From the NCBI GenBank assembly GCA_009784235.1, contig WRCC01000001.1, positions 1 to 64,000 on the forward strand: a DNA stretch of 64,000 bases, written 5' to 3'. Every line of letters starts with the position of its first letter. Position 1 is the first letter of the stretch. Position numbers and translations under genes: made by a program. Under the pieces are notes generated by a model, which ran no database searches, was not told where the DNA came from, and worked only from the letters and a program-made list of their open reading frames with translations. Below are positions 4,275-52,344 of the stretch, piece after piece. The stretch comes from Alphaproteobacteria bacterium. Lineage in GTDB: Bacteria > Pseudomonadota > Alphaproteobacteria > Rs-D84.

Positions 4275-4289
4275 TCAATCGCAAAAATA

Positions 4290-4317
4290 AAAATCCGCCA
4301 TTCGGCGGATTTTTTTG
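4290..4317 (+). terminator. Terminator after aqpZ, possibly bidirectional
   Basis: AAATCCGCC ATTC GGCGGATTTTTTT. It also lies eight bases past the stop of the minus-strand 35-aa gene. Confidence 0.9.
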
Positions 4318-6881: not shown

Positions 6882-7862
6882 TTATATCATGTTTTTGGCG
6901 TTTTCCAAGTCTGCGGCGCCGGGAATATTTCCTATGATTATGTCTGCGCTGAATTGGTGTTTGAACCAAGTCCGTTGACGCTTTGCATACTGATTGGTTT
7001 TGATTGTCCAGTTTGCAATCATTGTTGGTTCATCTATTTCGCCGCGGACAAATTGCATTATTTCCGCGCCACCGATTGCGCGTGACGGGTCGGTCATTTT
7101 TCGTGCTTCATCAATTGCGCCGGCGGCAATCATTCCGGGAATTCGTGCGGGAATTCGTGCGGCCAAAATTTCACGCGGCGGGTTAATTAAAAATTTAATT
7201 GCGTCCGGCACGATGGCACCCGTGCGCGGTTCGGATTGCCATTCGGTAATTGGTCGACCGGTTTCGAATAAAATTTCCAATGCGCGTGCGGCGCGCTGTG
7301 GGTCCGATGGCGCACCGGGGCCGAGTAGTTCGCGCACAGCGTCAATATCATCACGAACCATGTCGCGTGCGCGTTTGCGGTTAACATCTGATACGGCCGG
7401 CATCGCCGAAATTCCATTCAAAATTGCGTTAATATAGAATCCTGTTCCGCCGACGAATATAACAGGCGTTCCGGAACGTATTGCCGTATTATACACATCG
7501 CGCGCCATATCCAAATATTCACCAACTGATATTTGTTGGTTCAGTGGCAACACGGAAAACAGGTGATATGGCACGTTGTTGATTTCGCAGAAGGACTTGT
7601 GCCCTCCTTTTTGAGGGGGGCTGTCGCCTGAGGCGACTGGGGGGAGCTCCCCCTCGTCACGCTTTGCGTGACACTCCCCCTCAATGAGGGGGAGACAAGA
7701 ATTATCTGCAAATGGACTTGCCGATATTATTTCAATTCCGCGGTACATTTGCACGCTGTCGCAATTAATTATTACGCCACCGATTTGTTTTGCCAACGCA
7801 TGCGCAAATCCGGATTTTCCAGATGCAGTCGGCCCAGCGATAATATAAGTTTTTGATAACAT
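6882..7862 (-). CDS. miaA: tRNA dimethylallyltransferase MiaA with an inserted repeat peptide
   Basis: MiaA transfers an isopentenyl group to A37 of tRNAs reading UNN codons. The 326-residue protein has the P-loop GPTASGKS (residues 9-16), the DSVQMYRG segment and GGTGFYINAIL. Between the second strand and the VPYHLF segment (usually VPHHL) lies an extra stretch of about 31 residues (56-87) encoded by a palindromic repeat (7601-7695); it is absent from normal MiaA and remains in frame. ATG at 7862 is preferred over the in-frame TTG at 7889: a promoter (TTGCAG-17-TATAAT) ends exactly six bases before this ATG, so the mRNA should be leaderless. Confidence 0.93.
   Translation of the reverse strand: MLSKTYIIAGPTASGKSGFAHALAKQIGGVIINCDSVQMYRGIEIISASPFADNSCLPLIEGECHAKRDEGELPPVASGDSPPQKGGHKSFCEINNVPYHLFSVLPLNQQISVGEYLDMARDVYNTAIRSGTPVIFVGGTGFYINAILNGISAMPAVSDVNRKRARDMVRDDIDAVRELLGPGAPSDPQRAARALEILFETGRPITEWQSEPRTGAIVPDAIKFLINPPREILAARIPARIPGMIAAGAIDEARKMTDPSRAIGGAEIMQFVRGEIDEPTMIANWTIKTNQYAKRQRTWFKHQFSADIIIGNIPGAADLENAKNMI
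7601..7695. repeat. Palindromic repeat, family C, in frame inside miaA
   Basis: A chain of small hairpins: CCCTC..GAGGG, GTCGCC TGA GGCGAC, GTCACG CTTT GCGTGAC and CTCCCCCTC AAT GAGGGGGAG. A homologous element occurs inside polA at 51378-51471, in the opposite orientation relative to the host gene. It encodes about 31 extra residues. Confidence 0.85.
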
Positions 7863-7868
7863 GGGTGA

Positions 7869-7897
7869 ATTATAGGATACGCAAATCAATCCTGCAA
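7869..7897 (-). promoter_or_regulatory. Leaderless promoter of miaA
   Basis: On the minus strand: TTGCAG (7892-7897), 17-base spacer, TATAAT (7869-7874), six bases, then ATG at 7862. It lies at the 3' end of xerC, so miaA can be transcribed independently. Confidence 0.8.
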
Positions 7898-8830
7898 CTT
7901 TTTCGCCCGCGGGTGCGCGGCGGCGTAAGTGCTTGCAATCATCGACATATCAACCTTGGTATATAATTGCGTTGTTGATAATGACGAATGACCCAGCAAT
8001 TCTTGTAGTGTGCGCAAATCCGCACCGTCGGAAAGTAGTGCGGTGGCAAAAGTATGCCGCAAAGCATGCGGTGTTACATATTCGGGTAATTGCAGCGCAT
8101 TGCGCAGGTTTTCAATGACTTTTTGCGCCATACGCGGCGTCATCGGCAATCCGCGGACGGAACGGAATAAATGTAGGGGCGCGTACTCGCACCCTGGGGC
8201 GCAAATATGCGCCCCTACGAATGGTCGAATTTTTACATATTTCTCTATCGCGTCCCAAACGGCGGGCAACACGGGAACAATGCGTTCTTTACCACCTTTG
8301 CCGGTAATGCGCAGGACTTCGGGTCGGCCGGCAATGTCTTTGTCGGTCAGTGCAAGTGCTTCGCTGATACGCAATCCGCATCCGAAAATCAGCAACACCA
8401 GCGCATTATCCCGCGCGGCAATCCATGGTTCGGCCGCCACGTCGCCTGCTGCGTCTGTCATATTTTCGACGTCCAGGGTTTCGATTGCCTTGGATAATTT
8501 TTTTGGAATTTTTGGTGAAGAAATCAATGCAATTGCTTCGTTTTTAATACCATGCCTTTTGTCCGCGAACCGTAAAAAACTGCGCACCGATGACAAAGCC
8601 CGCGCGGTTGCACGATGTGACAAGTCGCGCCGACCGCGGTCGGCCAACCACGCGCGAAATCCGATTGTATCAATGCGTGTCAAATCCGCCGGCAACAATT
8701 CTGCACCGCGCCAAGTTTCATAAAATTGAATAAAATCACGGATGTCTGTTTCGTATGCATCGGCCGTATGCACAGAATACTTTTTAGTATTCAGCAGGTA
8801 ATCCAAAAATTCAGCGACCAGCGTGTCCAT
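7886..8830 (-). CDS. xerC: Tyrosine recombinase XerC
   Basis: A 314-residue XerC/D recombinase that resolves chromosome dimers at dif. The N-terminal SAM-like domain is followed by catalytic residues: Arg in GCGLRISEAL (about 151), Lys in TGKGGKER (about 175), HALRHTFA (about 254), His in LGHSSLSTTQLY and the Tyr nucleophile there (about 287). The STTQLYT wording is closer to XerC than XerD. Residues 204-219 (VGAHICAPGCEYAPLH) are encoded by a palindromic repeat (8172-8219) also found between genes, an in-frame insertion. It overlaps the LOG stop by one base (TAATG) and precedes miaA by 23 bases. Confidence 0.92.
   Translation of the reverse strand: MDTLVAEFLDYLLNTKKYSVHTADAYETDIRDFIQFYETWRGAELLPADLTRIDTIGFRAWLADRGRRDLSHRATARALSSVRSFLRFADKRHGIKNEAIALISSPKIPKKLSKAIETLDVENMTDAAGDVAAEPWIAARDNALVLLIFGCGLRISEALALTDKDIAGRPEVLRITGKGGKERIVPVLPAVWDAIEKYVKIRPFVGAHICAPGCEYAPLHLFRSVRGLPMTPRMAQKVIENLRNALQLPEYVTPHALRHTFATALLSDGADLRTLQELLGHSSLSTTQLYTKVDMSMIASTYAAAHPRAKKLQD
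8172..8219. repeat. Palindromic GTAGGGGCG repeat (family A) in frame inside xerC
   Basis: Starts TGTAGGGGCGCGTA and ends GCGCCCCTACG. It is nearly identical, in reverse complement, to the intergenic copy at 46467-46513. At 48 bases it adds 16 codons without breaking the frame. Confidence 0.9.
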
Positions 8831-17561: not shown

Positions 17562-17572
17562 AACAAAAGATA

Positions 17573-17601
17573 AAAAATCCGCCGTTCGGCGGATTTTTAT
17601 T
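17573..17601. terminator. Bidirectional terminator between convergent genes
   Basis: AAAAATCCGCC GTTC GGCGGATTTTTAT. Confidence 0.88.
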
Positions 17602-17878
17602 TCGTGTCATAATCTTTTGTTGATTTGTACAGTGCGATTATGCCAATGGCGATGTTGATTATCAGGGACAATATTGCAGCTGCAAAGAAAATGCCTGCCA
17701 CAACCATGAAGTTTTTTTCCGGGACAGCTTTGCCAATTGTGATAAACAGCGCACCGACAGCGGCCAGCGCAATATACAGCAGTAATCCCATCCAAATTTT
17801 CCATGCATATCTATTGCGACTTTTAAGCTTCTGATTTATATTCCGCAGATAATATTCTGATTTATTTTCGGCTTTCAT
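17597..17878 (-). CDS. Two-helix membrane protein, 93 aa
   Basis: A 93-residue protein with a basic N-terminus (MKAENKSEYYLRNINQKLKSRNRY), two hydrophobic helices (about 26-47 and 55-82) and a short polar tail. No family recognised. ATG at 17878 follows AAAAAGGAAA; an upstream reading from 17926 would run through a palindromic repeat and is rejected. The gene converges with the bactofilin-like pair. Confidence 0.68.
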   Translation of the reverse strand: MKAENKSEYYLRNINQKLKSRNRYAWKIWMGLLLYIALAAVGALFITIGKAVPEKNFMVVAGIFFAAAILSLIINIAIGIIALYKSTKDYDTK

Positions 17879-46530: not shown

Positions 46531-47124
46531 ATGAAGATTATATTAACTGAAAAAGTTGCAAAATTGGGCAACATCGGCGATGTCGTTGATGTTAAAATGG
46601 GATTTGCGCGTAATTACTTGCTGCCAAATGGCAAGGCGATGCGTTATTCCAAAGAAAATTTGGCTGTGTTTGAAACGAAAAAAGCTGAATTGACTGCGAA
46701 ACAAGAAGGCGCAAAAAAATCCGCCGAATCTTTGGTCGATAAAGTTGCCAACGCGAAATTCCACATGATTCGTTCCGCAGGGGACACCGGCCATCTGTAT
46801 GGTTCCGTGTCCAGCCGCGATATCGCGCGCATGTTGGCCGAACTGACCGGTGTTAAAATTGAATCAGCCCAAGTCTTGCTGGGCAATCCGATTAAAACCA
46901 TTGGCGCGTTCAATACGAAAATCGCGCTGCATGCCGATGTTATCGTTCCGGTAAAAATCTATGTCGCACAGACCCAAGACGAAATTGATGCATTGGTCGC
47001 TGGCAAAGTCTTGACGTTTGGAACAAAGAAAATCGAAGACGAAGTCGCGCCGGAGCCAGAGGCGAAGGCGGAAGAAGTCGTAGAACCAGTTGCAGAAGAA
47101 AAAACAGAAGAATCCGCAGAATAA
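46531..47124 (+). CDS. rplI: 50S ribosomal protein L9
   Basis: A 197-residue L9. The N-terminal domain MKIILTEKVAKLGNIGDVVDVKMGFARNYLLPNGKA is diagnostic, followed by the long connecting helix and the C-terminal rRNA-contacting domain (LYGSVSSRDIARML, IKTIGAFNTKIALHADV). It carries an extra acidic Glu/Ala/Pro/Val tail of about 35 residues. ATG follows AAAGGACAG. Confidence 0.96.
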   Translation: MKIILTEKVAKLGNIGDVVDVKMGFARNYLLPNGKAMRYSKENLAVFETKKAELTAKQEGAKKSAESLVDKVANAKFHMIRSAGDTGHLYGSVSSRDIARMLAELTGVKIESAQVLLGNPIKTIGAFNTKIALHADVIVPVKIYVAQTQDEIDALVAGKVLTFGTKKIEDEVAPEPEAKAEEVVEPVAEEKTEESAE

Positions 47125-47153
47125 AAAATCCGCCAAACGGCGGATTTTTATTT
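47124..47153. terminator. Bidirectional terminator after rplI
   Basis: AAAAATCCGCC AAAC GGCGGATTTTTAT. Confidence 0.88.
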
Positions 47154-49557: not shown

Positions 49558-52344
49558 TTATTTCTTCCAATCTTTGCTTATCGAATAATCTGCAACAATC
49601 GGTACAGATAATTTTGTGACGGATTCCATTACGTGTTCGATTTTTTGGGCCCAATCTTCGGCGGAATCTTCGTCGCATTCAAATACGATTTCATCGTGGA
49701 CTTGCAGAATCATTTTTATCTGTTCGCCTCGAATCATTTCATCAATTTTCACCATCGCAAATCGCATCAGGTCGGCTTCGAATCCTTGTATCGGCGCATT
49801 GATTGCGGCGCGCAGCGCGTACGACCGACTGCGCGGATTTTTTACATCTGGCAATTCGATGCGGCGGCCCCATGGCGTCATAACATATCCATGTGCCGCC
49901 CCGAATTCTTTGGTGTTTTTCATATAGGTTTCGATTTCCGGAAAACCCGCCATATACGAATCGATTAATTGTTTGGCGTCGCCGACCGGAATATCCAATT
50001 GCGCTGCCAATCCGAACGGCGACACGCCGTATATGATTGAAAAATTTGTTGTCTTGGCAACCGCACGTTGTGCATGGGTCACATGTCCGCCGGGTGCTAT
50101 ACCATAGATTTTTCGCGCGGTGTCTTCGTGAATGTCACGACCATGTGCGAAAGATTCTTTTAATTCTTTTACATCTGCAAAGTGCGCCAGCAATCGCAAT
50201 TGAATCTGTGAATAATCCAGAGCGATAAGCGTGCGGCCGCGCGGCGCAACAAAGCATTTGCGAATTTCCATGCCCAGTTCGGACTTGATCGGAATATTTT
50301 GCAGGTTCGGATCGCGCGATGACAATCGTCCGGTGTTGGTACTGGTCTGCAAATACGTTGTATGAATCCGACCGTCGCTGGCAATCTGTCGCGGCAATGC
50401 GTCCGCGTATGTTCCGGCCAACTTTGCAACTGAACGCCATTCCAATACTTTCGCCACCACCGGATGTTCGGACGAAATTTCGGCCAATGTTGCGGCATCG
50501 GTCGATTTGCTTTTCCCACCGCCCGGCAATTTCAATTCGTCATATAATAATTCGCCCAATTGTTTCGGACTGGCGATATTAAATTCGCGGCCGGCCAAGT
50601 GCCAGATTTCTTTTTGCAATGTCGCCAATTGTTTGTGAAATATTTCGGACAGCGATGCCAATCGCGATTGGTCGGCCATAACGCCGATGCGTTCCATGTG
50701 CAGCAAAACGCGCATCAGCGGTCGGTCACAATTTTCATATAATTTATGCAGCGTTTCATTGTGTTCCAATTTTTCACGGAATTTTTTATACAAAGCAAAT
50801 GTAATCCAAGCGTCTTCGGCGGCATATTCTGCAGCTGTTTGCAAATCGATATGTGCAAAATTTTTATCGGCGTCTTTCATTTTCGGCGGGAACAGCGCGC
50901 CAAATTTTATGGTATCATGCGCCAAATAAATTTCCGCCAATTCATCCAAGCCATGCCCGTGCGATGTACCGAACAAAACATACGACAATAACATAGTATC
51001 ATCGTACGGTGCGATTTCATCGGTGGCCCAGCCTTCGTTTTCCAATACATGAAAATCATATTTCAGGTTATGTCCGACTTTGATTATGTTTTTGTTTTTT
51101 AATATCGGCCACAATTTTTCGCGAACGATATTTATATCCAATTGCACGTGCGATGCACTATCGTCATCAAATAAACTTTCCGACTTTTTTGTATGACGTA
51201 ACGGTATATAAACGCCATGATGCGGTGATGTTGCCAGTGAAATCCCAACGGCGCGCGCGGTCATCTGGTCCAGACCGGTCGTTTCTGTATCAATGGCCAG
51301 AACATCGCCGATGCCGGCAATAAATTCATCCAGTTCCGGTTCGGTAGTGATGAGTTTGTAGGGGAGGTGTTTTGTTTCTCCCTCTTTGAGGGGGAGTGTC
51401 GGCAAAGCCGACGAGGGAGAGCTCCGCCCAGTCGCGCTTTGCGCGACAGCCCCCCTCAGTGATGGGGGCACAAATCCGGTATCTCCAAACAGCTTATTAA
51501 CTTTTGCTTCCAAGGACGGGCTTTCCAGGCGGTCGCGGATGAATTCGATGGCACGTGCGGTATCCATACGATACGGCTCGCGCGAAATATGCGGTAATTT
51601 TACATCCGATTTCAACGATACTAATTTTTGTGAAATATATGCTTTGTCTTTATTATCGACCAGCAGGTTGCGAATTCTGTCGCGTTCGACTTCATTCACG
51701 CGCCGATACAATCCATCCAATGAACCAAATTTTTGAATCAGTTCGGATGCAGTTTTCGGACCGATTCCCGGCACGCCCGGAACATTATCCGTCGCATCGC
51801 CCATCAGTGATTGTACATCGACAACGCGGTTTGGTTTTACGCCGAATTTTTCCATCACCTCTGGCTCGCGTATTTCGACTTCTTTCATCGTGTCGTATAA
51901 AAAACAGCAATGCGATACCAATTGCATTAAATCTTTATCACCGGAAATTATGCGTGTTTGTTTGTCCACGGCACATTCATGTTTGGTCAGTGTTGCGATT
52001 ACATCGTCTGCTTCGACATTATCGATTACCAAGACTGTCATACCCATGGCAGCGGCCGCTTCGCGTGTTGGTTCGACCTGGGCCAATAAATCCGCGGGTG
52101 TGTCACTGCGATTTGCTTTGTAATCGGGGTAAATATCATTGCGCCAATTACGGCGGTGTGCGTCGAATACGCATATAAATACATCGTCCGGACCGGATTT
52201 GGCAAGCAGCGGCAACATCATATTACAAAACCCAAATACCGCGTTCACAGGTTTGCCATCGCGCTTGGTCAGACGCGAATGCACACCGTAATAAGCACGG
52301 AATAGCAAATTGTTTCCATCGATAAGTGTCAATTGTCCAGACAT
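49558..52344 (-). CDS. polA: DNA polymerase I with in-frame repeat in the exonuclease linker
   Basis: A 928-residue PolA with all three activities. The 5' nuclease domain (1-290; DGNNLLFRAYYG, GDKDLMQLV, GVPGIGPKTASELI) is followed by a linker; the 3'-5' exonuclease keeps its DxE (IDTETTGL, about residue 352) and YxxxD (AAEYAAEDAW), so proofreading should be active; the polymerase has DYSQIQLRLLAH, RAVAKTTNFSIIYGVSPFGLA and the VHDEIVFE motif. Residues about 291-322 (RGAVAQSATGRSSPSSALPTL) come from a palindromic repeat at 51378-51471. ATG at 52344 lies six bases after TATAAT with no Shine-Dalgarno. Confidence 0.96.
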   Translation of the reverse strand: MSGQLTLIDGNNLLFRAYYGVHSRLTKRDGKPVNAVFGFCNMMLPLLAKSGPDDVFICVFDAHRRNWRNDIYPDYKANRSDTPADLLAQVEPTREAAAAMGMTVLVIDNVEADDVIATLTKHECAVDKQTRIISGDKDLMQLVSHCCFLYDTMKEVEIREPEVMEKFGVKPNRVVDVQSLMGDATDNVPGVPGIGPKTASELIQKFGSLDGLYRRVNEVERDRIRNLLVDNKDKAYISQKLVSLKSDVKLPHISREPYRMDTARAIEFIRDRLESPSLEAKVNKLFGDTGFVPPSLRGAVAQSATGRSSPSSALPTLPLKEGETKHLPYKLITTEPELDEFIAGIGDVLAIDTETTGLDQMTARAVGISLATSPHHGVYIPLRHTKKSESLFDDDSASHVQLDINIVREKLWPILKNKNIIKVGHNLKYDFHVLENEGWATDEIAPYDDTMLLSYVLFGTSHGHGLDELAEIYLAHDTIKFGALFPPKMKDADKNFAHIDLQTAAEYAAEDAWITFALYKKFREKLEHNETLHKLYENCDRPLMRVLLHMERIGVMADQSRLASLSEIFHKQLATLQKEIWHLAGREFNIASPKQLGELLYDELKLPGGGKSKSTDAATLAEISSEHPVVAKVLEWRSVAKLAGTYADALPRQIASDGRIHTTYLQTSTNTGRLSSRDPNLQNIPIKSELGMEIRKCFVAPRGRTLIALDYSQIQLRLLAHFADVKELKESFAHGRDIHEDTARKIYGIAPGGHVTHAQRAVAKTTNFSIIYGVSPFGLAAQLDIPVGDAKQLIDSYMAGFPEIETYMKNTKEFGAAHGYVMTPWGRRIELPDVKNPRSRSYALRAAINAPIQGFEADLMRFAMVKIDEMIRGEQIKMILQVHDEIVFECDEDSAEDWAQKIEHVMESVTKLSVPIVADYSISKDWKK
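51378..51471. repeat. Palindromic repeat family C in frame inside polA
   Basis: Chain of hairpins (CTCCCTC TTT GAGGGGGAG, GTCGGC AAA GCCGAC, GTCGCGC TTT GCGCGAC) homologous to the miaA copy at 7601-7695. It encodes about 31 residues in the linker between the two exonuclease domains. Confidence 0.85.

Follow-up and report, generated by a model that had tools for sequence, protein, structure and literature searches.

Protein-coding palindromes in miaA and other genes of a small alphaproteobacterial genome, and their association with DUF559 nucleases

The miaA Locus and the Family-A Element

The window analyzed here is a stretch of 64,000 nucleotides from an alphaproteobacterial genome of 874,588 bp. 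Its minus strand carries, at 6882..7889, an open reading frame for miaA (tRNA dimethylallyltransferase), with a likely start at 7862, which is identified by Pfam (IPPT, 1.5e-46) and by a Foldseek match to E. coli MiaA (3foz, E 1.7e-17). Within this frame, at 7598..7698 of the same strand, lies a hairpin-rich repeat, a member of a family of ~100-bp multi-hairpin palindromes (family A) that is recognized by blastn, nhmmer and CM matches. A preliminary description had placed such a repeat in frame within miaA and had noted the same repeat in polA, and both observations hold: the polA copy lies at 51372..51472 on the plus strand (blastn, nhmmer) and is in frame in the minus-strand gene for DNA polymerase I (928 aa; 49558..52344; ORF listing and Pfam DNA_pol_A, 5_3_exonuc and exo1). 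The repeat in miaA folds at -64.9 kcal/mol (z -6.4 vs. shuffles), the architecture of the family is a chain of hairpins in two inverted units, and compensatory changes among copies are seen in the two variable hairpins.

A tabulation of all copies by frame and position, which had been suggested as a check, found 12 family-A elements in the genome (blastn and nhmmer), that is, 11 whole copies and an element in QueA with two half copies. The hosts, named by Pfam except for NifJ (from sequence), are MiaA, PolA, Nth, RuvB, Tgt, GatB, TatD, RsmE, MnmG, NifJ (two) and QueA. Every element lies inside a long ORF, with no intergenic copy among the 12, and every one is open across the insert and read in the frame of its host gene, as had been claimed for the miaA repeat. 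All 12 net lengths are divisible by three, an outcome with a chance of 2e-6 without selection. Genic location by itself was rejected as proof of a preference for genes: because ~93% of the genome is coding, 12 genic copies out of 12 would be expected with a probability of 0.40, so it is the preservation of frame that is surprising. The copies are read in two of the three forward frames; in the third, the first loop usually contains a stop. In 11 of the 12 copies, the orientation is the same with respect to the host gene (p 0.006), the polA copy being the sole exception, even though most copies are stop-free in both orientations.

In the RsmE copy (C2:194438-194577), another palindrome is nested in the last hairpin with the frame kept. 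No inverted flank copy of significance was detected. A search of plasmids for the element found none, and a search of phages gave two short partial matches only.

Empty Sites and the Predicted Position of the Insert

An alignment of MiaA with relatives lacking the element had also been proposed, with the understanding that the insertion would be in doubt if all relatives had the same residues and no similar repeat occurred elsewhere; neither is the case. Sixteen of 19 relatives have an empty site between the conserved ISASPFA and VPYxLFS; of the other three, G006 and G011 have an unrelated insertion in this loop, and the third sequence does not extend over the site. The net insert amounts to ~37 codons, so that the repeat-encoded stretch described earlier stands, while its size had been put slightly too low at ~31 residues. 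Empty sites between well-conserved residues are also found in relatives for Nth, NifJ, RuvB, Tgt, GatB and MnmG. The PolA site is less clear, as its linker is variable in all relatives and was aligned without similarity there, and the TatD and RsmE alignments were too short for judging. In G006, this MiaA loop is occupied by a different repeat, and the Nth loop has a family-A-like copy in the position of the one found here; therefore, tolerated loops have been struck repeatedly.

An AlphaFold model of MiaA built from 18 aligned sequences has a mean pLDDT of 82 and a TM score of 0.78-0.83 against E. coli MiaA, and only residues 52-88, which are the insert, fall below a pLDDT of 50. Where about 42 residues are present in this protein, the closest PDB sequence has three. 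The model thus predicts that the MiaA fold is intact and that the insert forms a disordered loop in it, in agreement with the earlier suggestion that the insert sits in a loop.

DUF559 Nucleases as In-Frame Guests

The QueA element consists of a left half copy of family A, a DUF559 domain (PF04480, 1.3e-31) and an inverted half copy, all within a single open 518-aa frame, and the family-A left unit is 98% identical to its left arm. DUF559 is a Vsr-like nuclease of the PD-(D/E)XK type, as judged from the PF04480 profile match and a solved relative (PDB 3hrl, E 1.6e-17). This nuclease is absent from the preliminary description, which was right about the repeat but understated it, and we think the link to DUF559 the more important finding.

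Several of the 80 relatives searched also have DUF559 in long frames. In QueA, the guest follows RLLESAA in this genome and G028, and it follows SRMLVV, a second site, in G006, G041 and G045. RecO carries a guest at the same place in G001 and G012, QueH carries one in G026 and G037, and TsaB carries one in G012 (a Pfam TsaD-family match); the identity of the host in the RecO, QueH, QueA and TsaB fusions was checked by Pfam. HsdM of a distant proteobacterium is interrupted by DUF559 likewise. Nearly all aligned guests retain the catalytic motifs FR[KR]Q, DF and E[LI]DG, with a change in the guest of G045. Between species, amino acid identity is higher in guest than in host (79 vs. 67, 73 vs. 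58 and 99 vs. 83%), and in the QueA pair the amino acid identity of the guest exceeds its nucleotide identity, as expected for a protein under purifying selection. A model of the QueA–DUF559 fusion was poor (pLDDT 43) and was set aside.

In QueH, G026 and G037 differ at ~28% of nucleotides (~72% identity) until roughly 20-30 nt before the insert, and are then 99% identical through the insert and for ~190 nt beyond it, to the end of the G037 contig. As read from these two sequences, such a jump would be expected from copying of the insert into an empty site together with adjacent sequence (co-conversion). Because the high identity runs to the contig end, however, transfer of a longer segment or a chimeric contig could have produced the same pattern.

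Hairpin Arms and Their Match to the Palindromes

Inverted repeats flank 28 of 29 DUF559 domains from relatives and the class, above the 95% level of same-locus controls in a local alignment of 250-nt flanks. By the same measure, an independent phylum-wide sample has inverted arms at 21 of 29 DUF559 loci and eight loci without clear arms. The arms are themselves hairpins, and the same kind of nuclease with palindromic arms also sits outside genes. In four of six genomes (G000, G028, G001 and G006), the DUF559 arms of the same genome are the best match for its palindromes (scores of 83, 87, 66 and 50, respectively), and in the other two (G012 and G016) nuclease arms of other genomes match better. 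DUF559 and palindromes also co-occur (Fisher p 0.0003; 0.016 within the family), an association that is confounded by relatedness.

With respect to miniature elements of the MITE type, the terminal repeats are common to the short and the full-length element, as seen in the 98% left-arm identity and the genome-matched arms, and DUF559 would be the mover. Target-site duplication was not detected, direct flanks being no more similar to each other than shuffled pairs (p 0.77), and no conserved target was found. The short element has arm L followed by a different arm R, and the QueA composite has L followed by inverted L. Because arm R differs from inverted L, deletion alone does not turn the long form into the short one.

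Proposed Mechanism and Alternatives

We consider it somewhat probable that DUF559 nucleases mobilize the elements described here, the short palindromes being MITE-like derivatives that lack the gene. The full element would comprise a hairpin-bearing arm, the PD-(D/E)XK nuclease and an inverted arm, and the miaA insert would be a short copy without the gene. Most likely, DNA cleavage by the nuclease enables copying of the arms into new sites, and the nuclease may act both on its own element and in trans on gene-less palindromes. In a tiny, gene-dense genome, copies would survive where they are open in frame and in surface loops, the survivors being translated as a disordered peptide or, in QueA, RecO, QueH and TsaB, as an entire nuclease domain carried as a guest, and the host proteins would remain active. 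The structural association of nuclease and palindromes is plain in the arms and in the QueA element; a causal role for the nuclease is what the association suggests.

This proposal has to be weighed against the idea that the palindromes are selfish repeats like the Rickettsia palindromic elements (RPEs) with some other mover, the DUF559 in QueA being a chance passenger or the repeats simply gathering around DUF559 genes. We regard that explanation as unlikely but not negligible: this genome has one DUF559 copy vs. 11 palindromes, its genome-wide list gives no DUF559 partner for an unrelated palindrome family (family C, below), and the available portion of a review on the Rickettsia elements names no mover for them (PMC10969869). 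A chance passenger, however, would yield neither the arms found at most DUF559 loci in both samples nor the same-genome arm matches. IS200/RAYT elements make no target duplication, and the lack of one here would fit a REPIN-like element that depends on a RAYT (Y1 tyrosine) transposase acting in trans. The paired inverted hairpin units resemble REPINs as well, as these are described in PMC3116915. Yet a search for Y1_Tnp (PF01797), which gave the expected matches in control genomes, found none in this genome or in four of the five relatives that bear the elements, and in G012 gave one weak and partial match; movement by such a transposase is very improbable.

An intein, a group I/II intron or translational bypass, through which the insert would be removed from protein or RNA and leave a normal host protein, is also quite improbable. 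A nuclease in an in-frame insert of a conserved gene does resemble inteins and introns with homing endonucleases, and Vsr-like homing nucleases are known. Nevertheless, Pfam finds no intein (Hint) domain in the QueA, RecO, QueH and TsaB fusions, which contain host domains and the DUF559/MTES_1575 nuclease only, and Rfam gives no family for six guest loci or for the miaA insert, apart from one sub-threshold chance match beside the latter. Moreover, the inserts contain no stops and keep the frame, neither of which would be needed if they were removed, and they lie in variable loops rather than in conserved motifs. The RAYT, intron and intein explanations are therefore not supported. Co-option, in which the inserted peptides were kept as beneficial to the host proteins, might account for the absence of intergenic copies and the shared orientation of 11 of 12, a bias greater than simple survival predicts, but the copies are read in two different frames, the peptide in MiaA is predicted to be disordered and close relatives lack the insert, so that we hold it the least probable of all.

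Extending mobilization by DUF559 to other bacteria, one may tentatively propose, with reservations that outweigh our confidence, that DUF559 nucleases are a widespread class of bacterial mobile elements with hairpin arms, retained as in-frame protein guests, and that their gene-less derivatives are the protein-coding palindromes, perhaps including those of Rickettsia.

Comparison With Known Systems

Ever since protein-coding palindromes were discovered in Rickettsia there has been, to our knowledge, no settled account of how they spread, and we know of no RPE reported with a mover. RPEs are in-frame palindromic repeats in Rickettsia genes (Ogata et al., 2000, 2002; summarized in the accessible part of PMC10969869), and a similar process in other prokaryotes was considered only conceivable in that 2024 review. 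The present elements work like RPEs, as had been suggested: they are dispersed, strong-hairpin palindromes of ~100 bp (the likeness extends to hairpin repeats of ~100-150 bp), inserted open and in frame with empty sites in relatives, in unrelated housekeeping genes of a small alphaproteobacterial genome, and they encode, as read from sequence, a peptide that is predicted, by the MiaA model only, to be compatible with the host fold. The differences are another lineage, a wholly genic set of copies and a matching copy that carries an in-frame nuclease, and the likeness is one of description rather than of sequence comparison. The nuclease link is the new claim.

REPIN–RAYT systems are similar in that hairpin units are paired in inverted orientation, the repeats form a non-autonomous population and they also flank an enzyme gene, but REPINs are typically extragenic and depend on a Y1 tyrosine transposase instead of a DUF559 PD-(D/E)XK nuclease (PMC3116915). 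Inteins and introns with homing endonucleases, including Vsr-like EDxHD families, likewise place an in-frame nuclease repeatedly at the same sites of conserved genes, and the conversion-like identity jump in QueH recalls them; here, however, no splicing domain or intron was found, the guest seems to be retained in the protein, and the nuclease with its palindromic arms also occurs outside genes. VsrA of Caulobacter, a DUF559 protein, and PDB 3hrl belong to the same nuclease family (PF04480); VsrA has been proposed to be a mismatch-repair nuclease, and the available portion of that paper does not describe a mobile-element role or flanking palindromes for it (PMC12907096). Long palindromes within protein-coding genes are also known from mitochondria of Nematomorpha, as perfect inverted repeats in animal mitochondrial genes in contrast to a dispersed, nuclease-bearing family (accessible part of PMC6649704). 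In the open-access literature, we found nothing that ties DUF559 or Vsr to palindromes or homing in such a setting.

This is a second case of protein-coding palindromes, in another alphaproteobacterial lineage, and here the sequence itself also offers a candidate mover; the QueA copy with a nuclease between its arms suggests how protein-invading repeats could spread. If true, the proposal would give a role to many DUF559 genes and a route for disordered segments and whole domains into conserved proteins.

Distribution and Other Palindromes

A strict DNA-pattern scan of 84,980 species gave matches chiefly in two MAGs, JAISSM and WQUT (Cu122P5bin52), both of which we take from the style of their isolate names to be from termite guts; no member of the genus Rickettsia was among the matches listed. 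The remaining single matches, in Streptomyces, Cellulomonas and others, may be chance in GC-rich DNA. The nearest named relatives are MAGs, and one of them, JAISSM, was deposited as 'Rickettsiales bacterium isolate Mcx344_bin51'. In the earlier remark that such repeats are rare outside Rickettsiales, 'outside Rickettsiales' therefore depends on the taxonomy adopted. All seven elements inspected in G012 are in frame in genes, including PolA, RbfA, TilS and enolase, and most elements of G006, G016 and G028 are intergenic. Intergenic copies in G006 and G016 (L117-L126, L152-L156) share an extra end motif, e.g., TAGANNNNGAGCTTA or TAGACCGAGTTTA, which may mark the actual end of the element or a target that it prefers.

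Next to miaA, a XerC-type recombinase ORF (7886-8830, named from sequence) hosts a coding palindrome of family C at 8166..8225 on the minus strand (GTAGGGGCG...GCGCCCCTAC), which was found by a repeat search and the genome-wide list and is unrelated to family A. Copies of family C (~45 bp, peptide VGAHTCAPGREYAPL) lie in frame within some twelve ORFs, among them XerC, MnmE, RuvA and MnmG (named from sequence), and at many intergenic sites. A further palindrome, family B (CCCCTCC...GGAGGGG; C2:125149-125201, C2:21054-21114, C3:5313 and C3:9569), occurs in frame within MnmG and within an MnmE-like ORF, its other copies being intergenic, and MnmG carries families A, B and C at three sites. The family-B palindromes of this genome match DUF559 arms in G008 and G045. 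Three near-identical AAATCCGCC..GGCGGATTTTT hairpins of the window, at 4285-4315, 17572-17602 and 47123-47153, look like ordinary intrinsic terminators.
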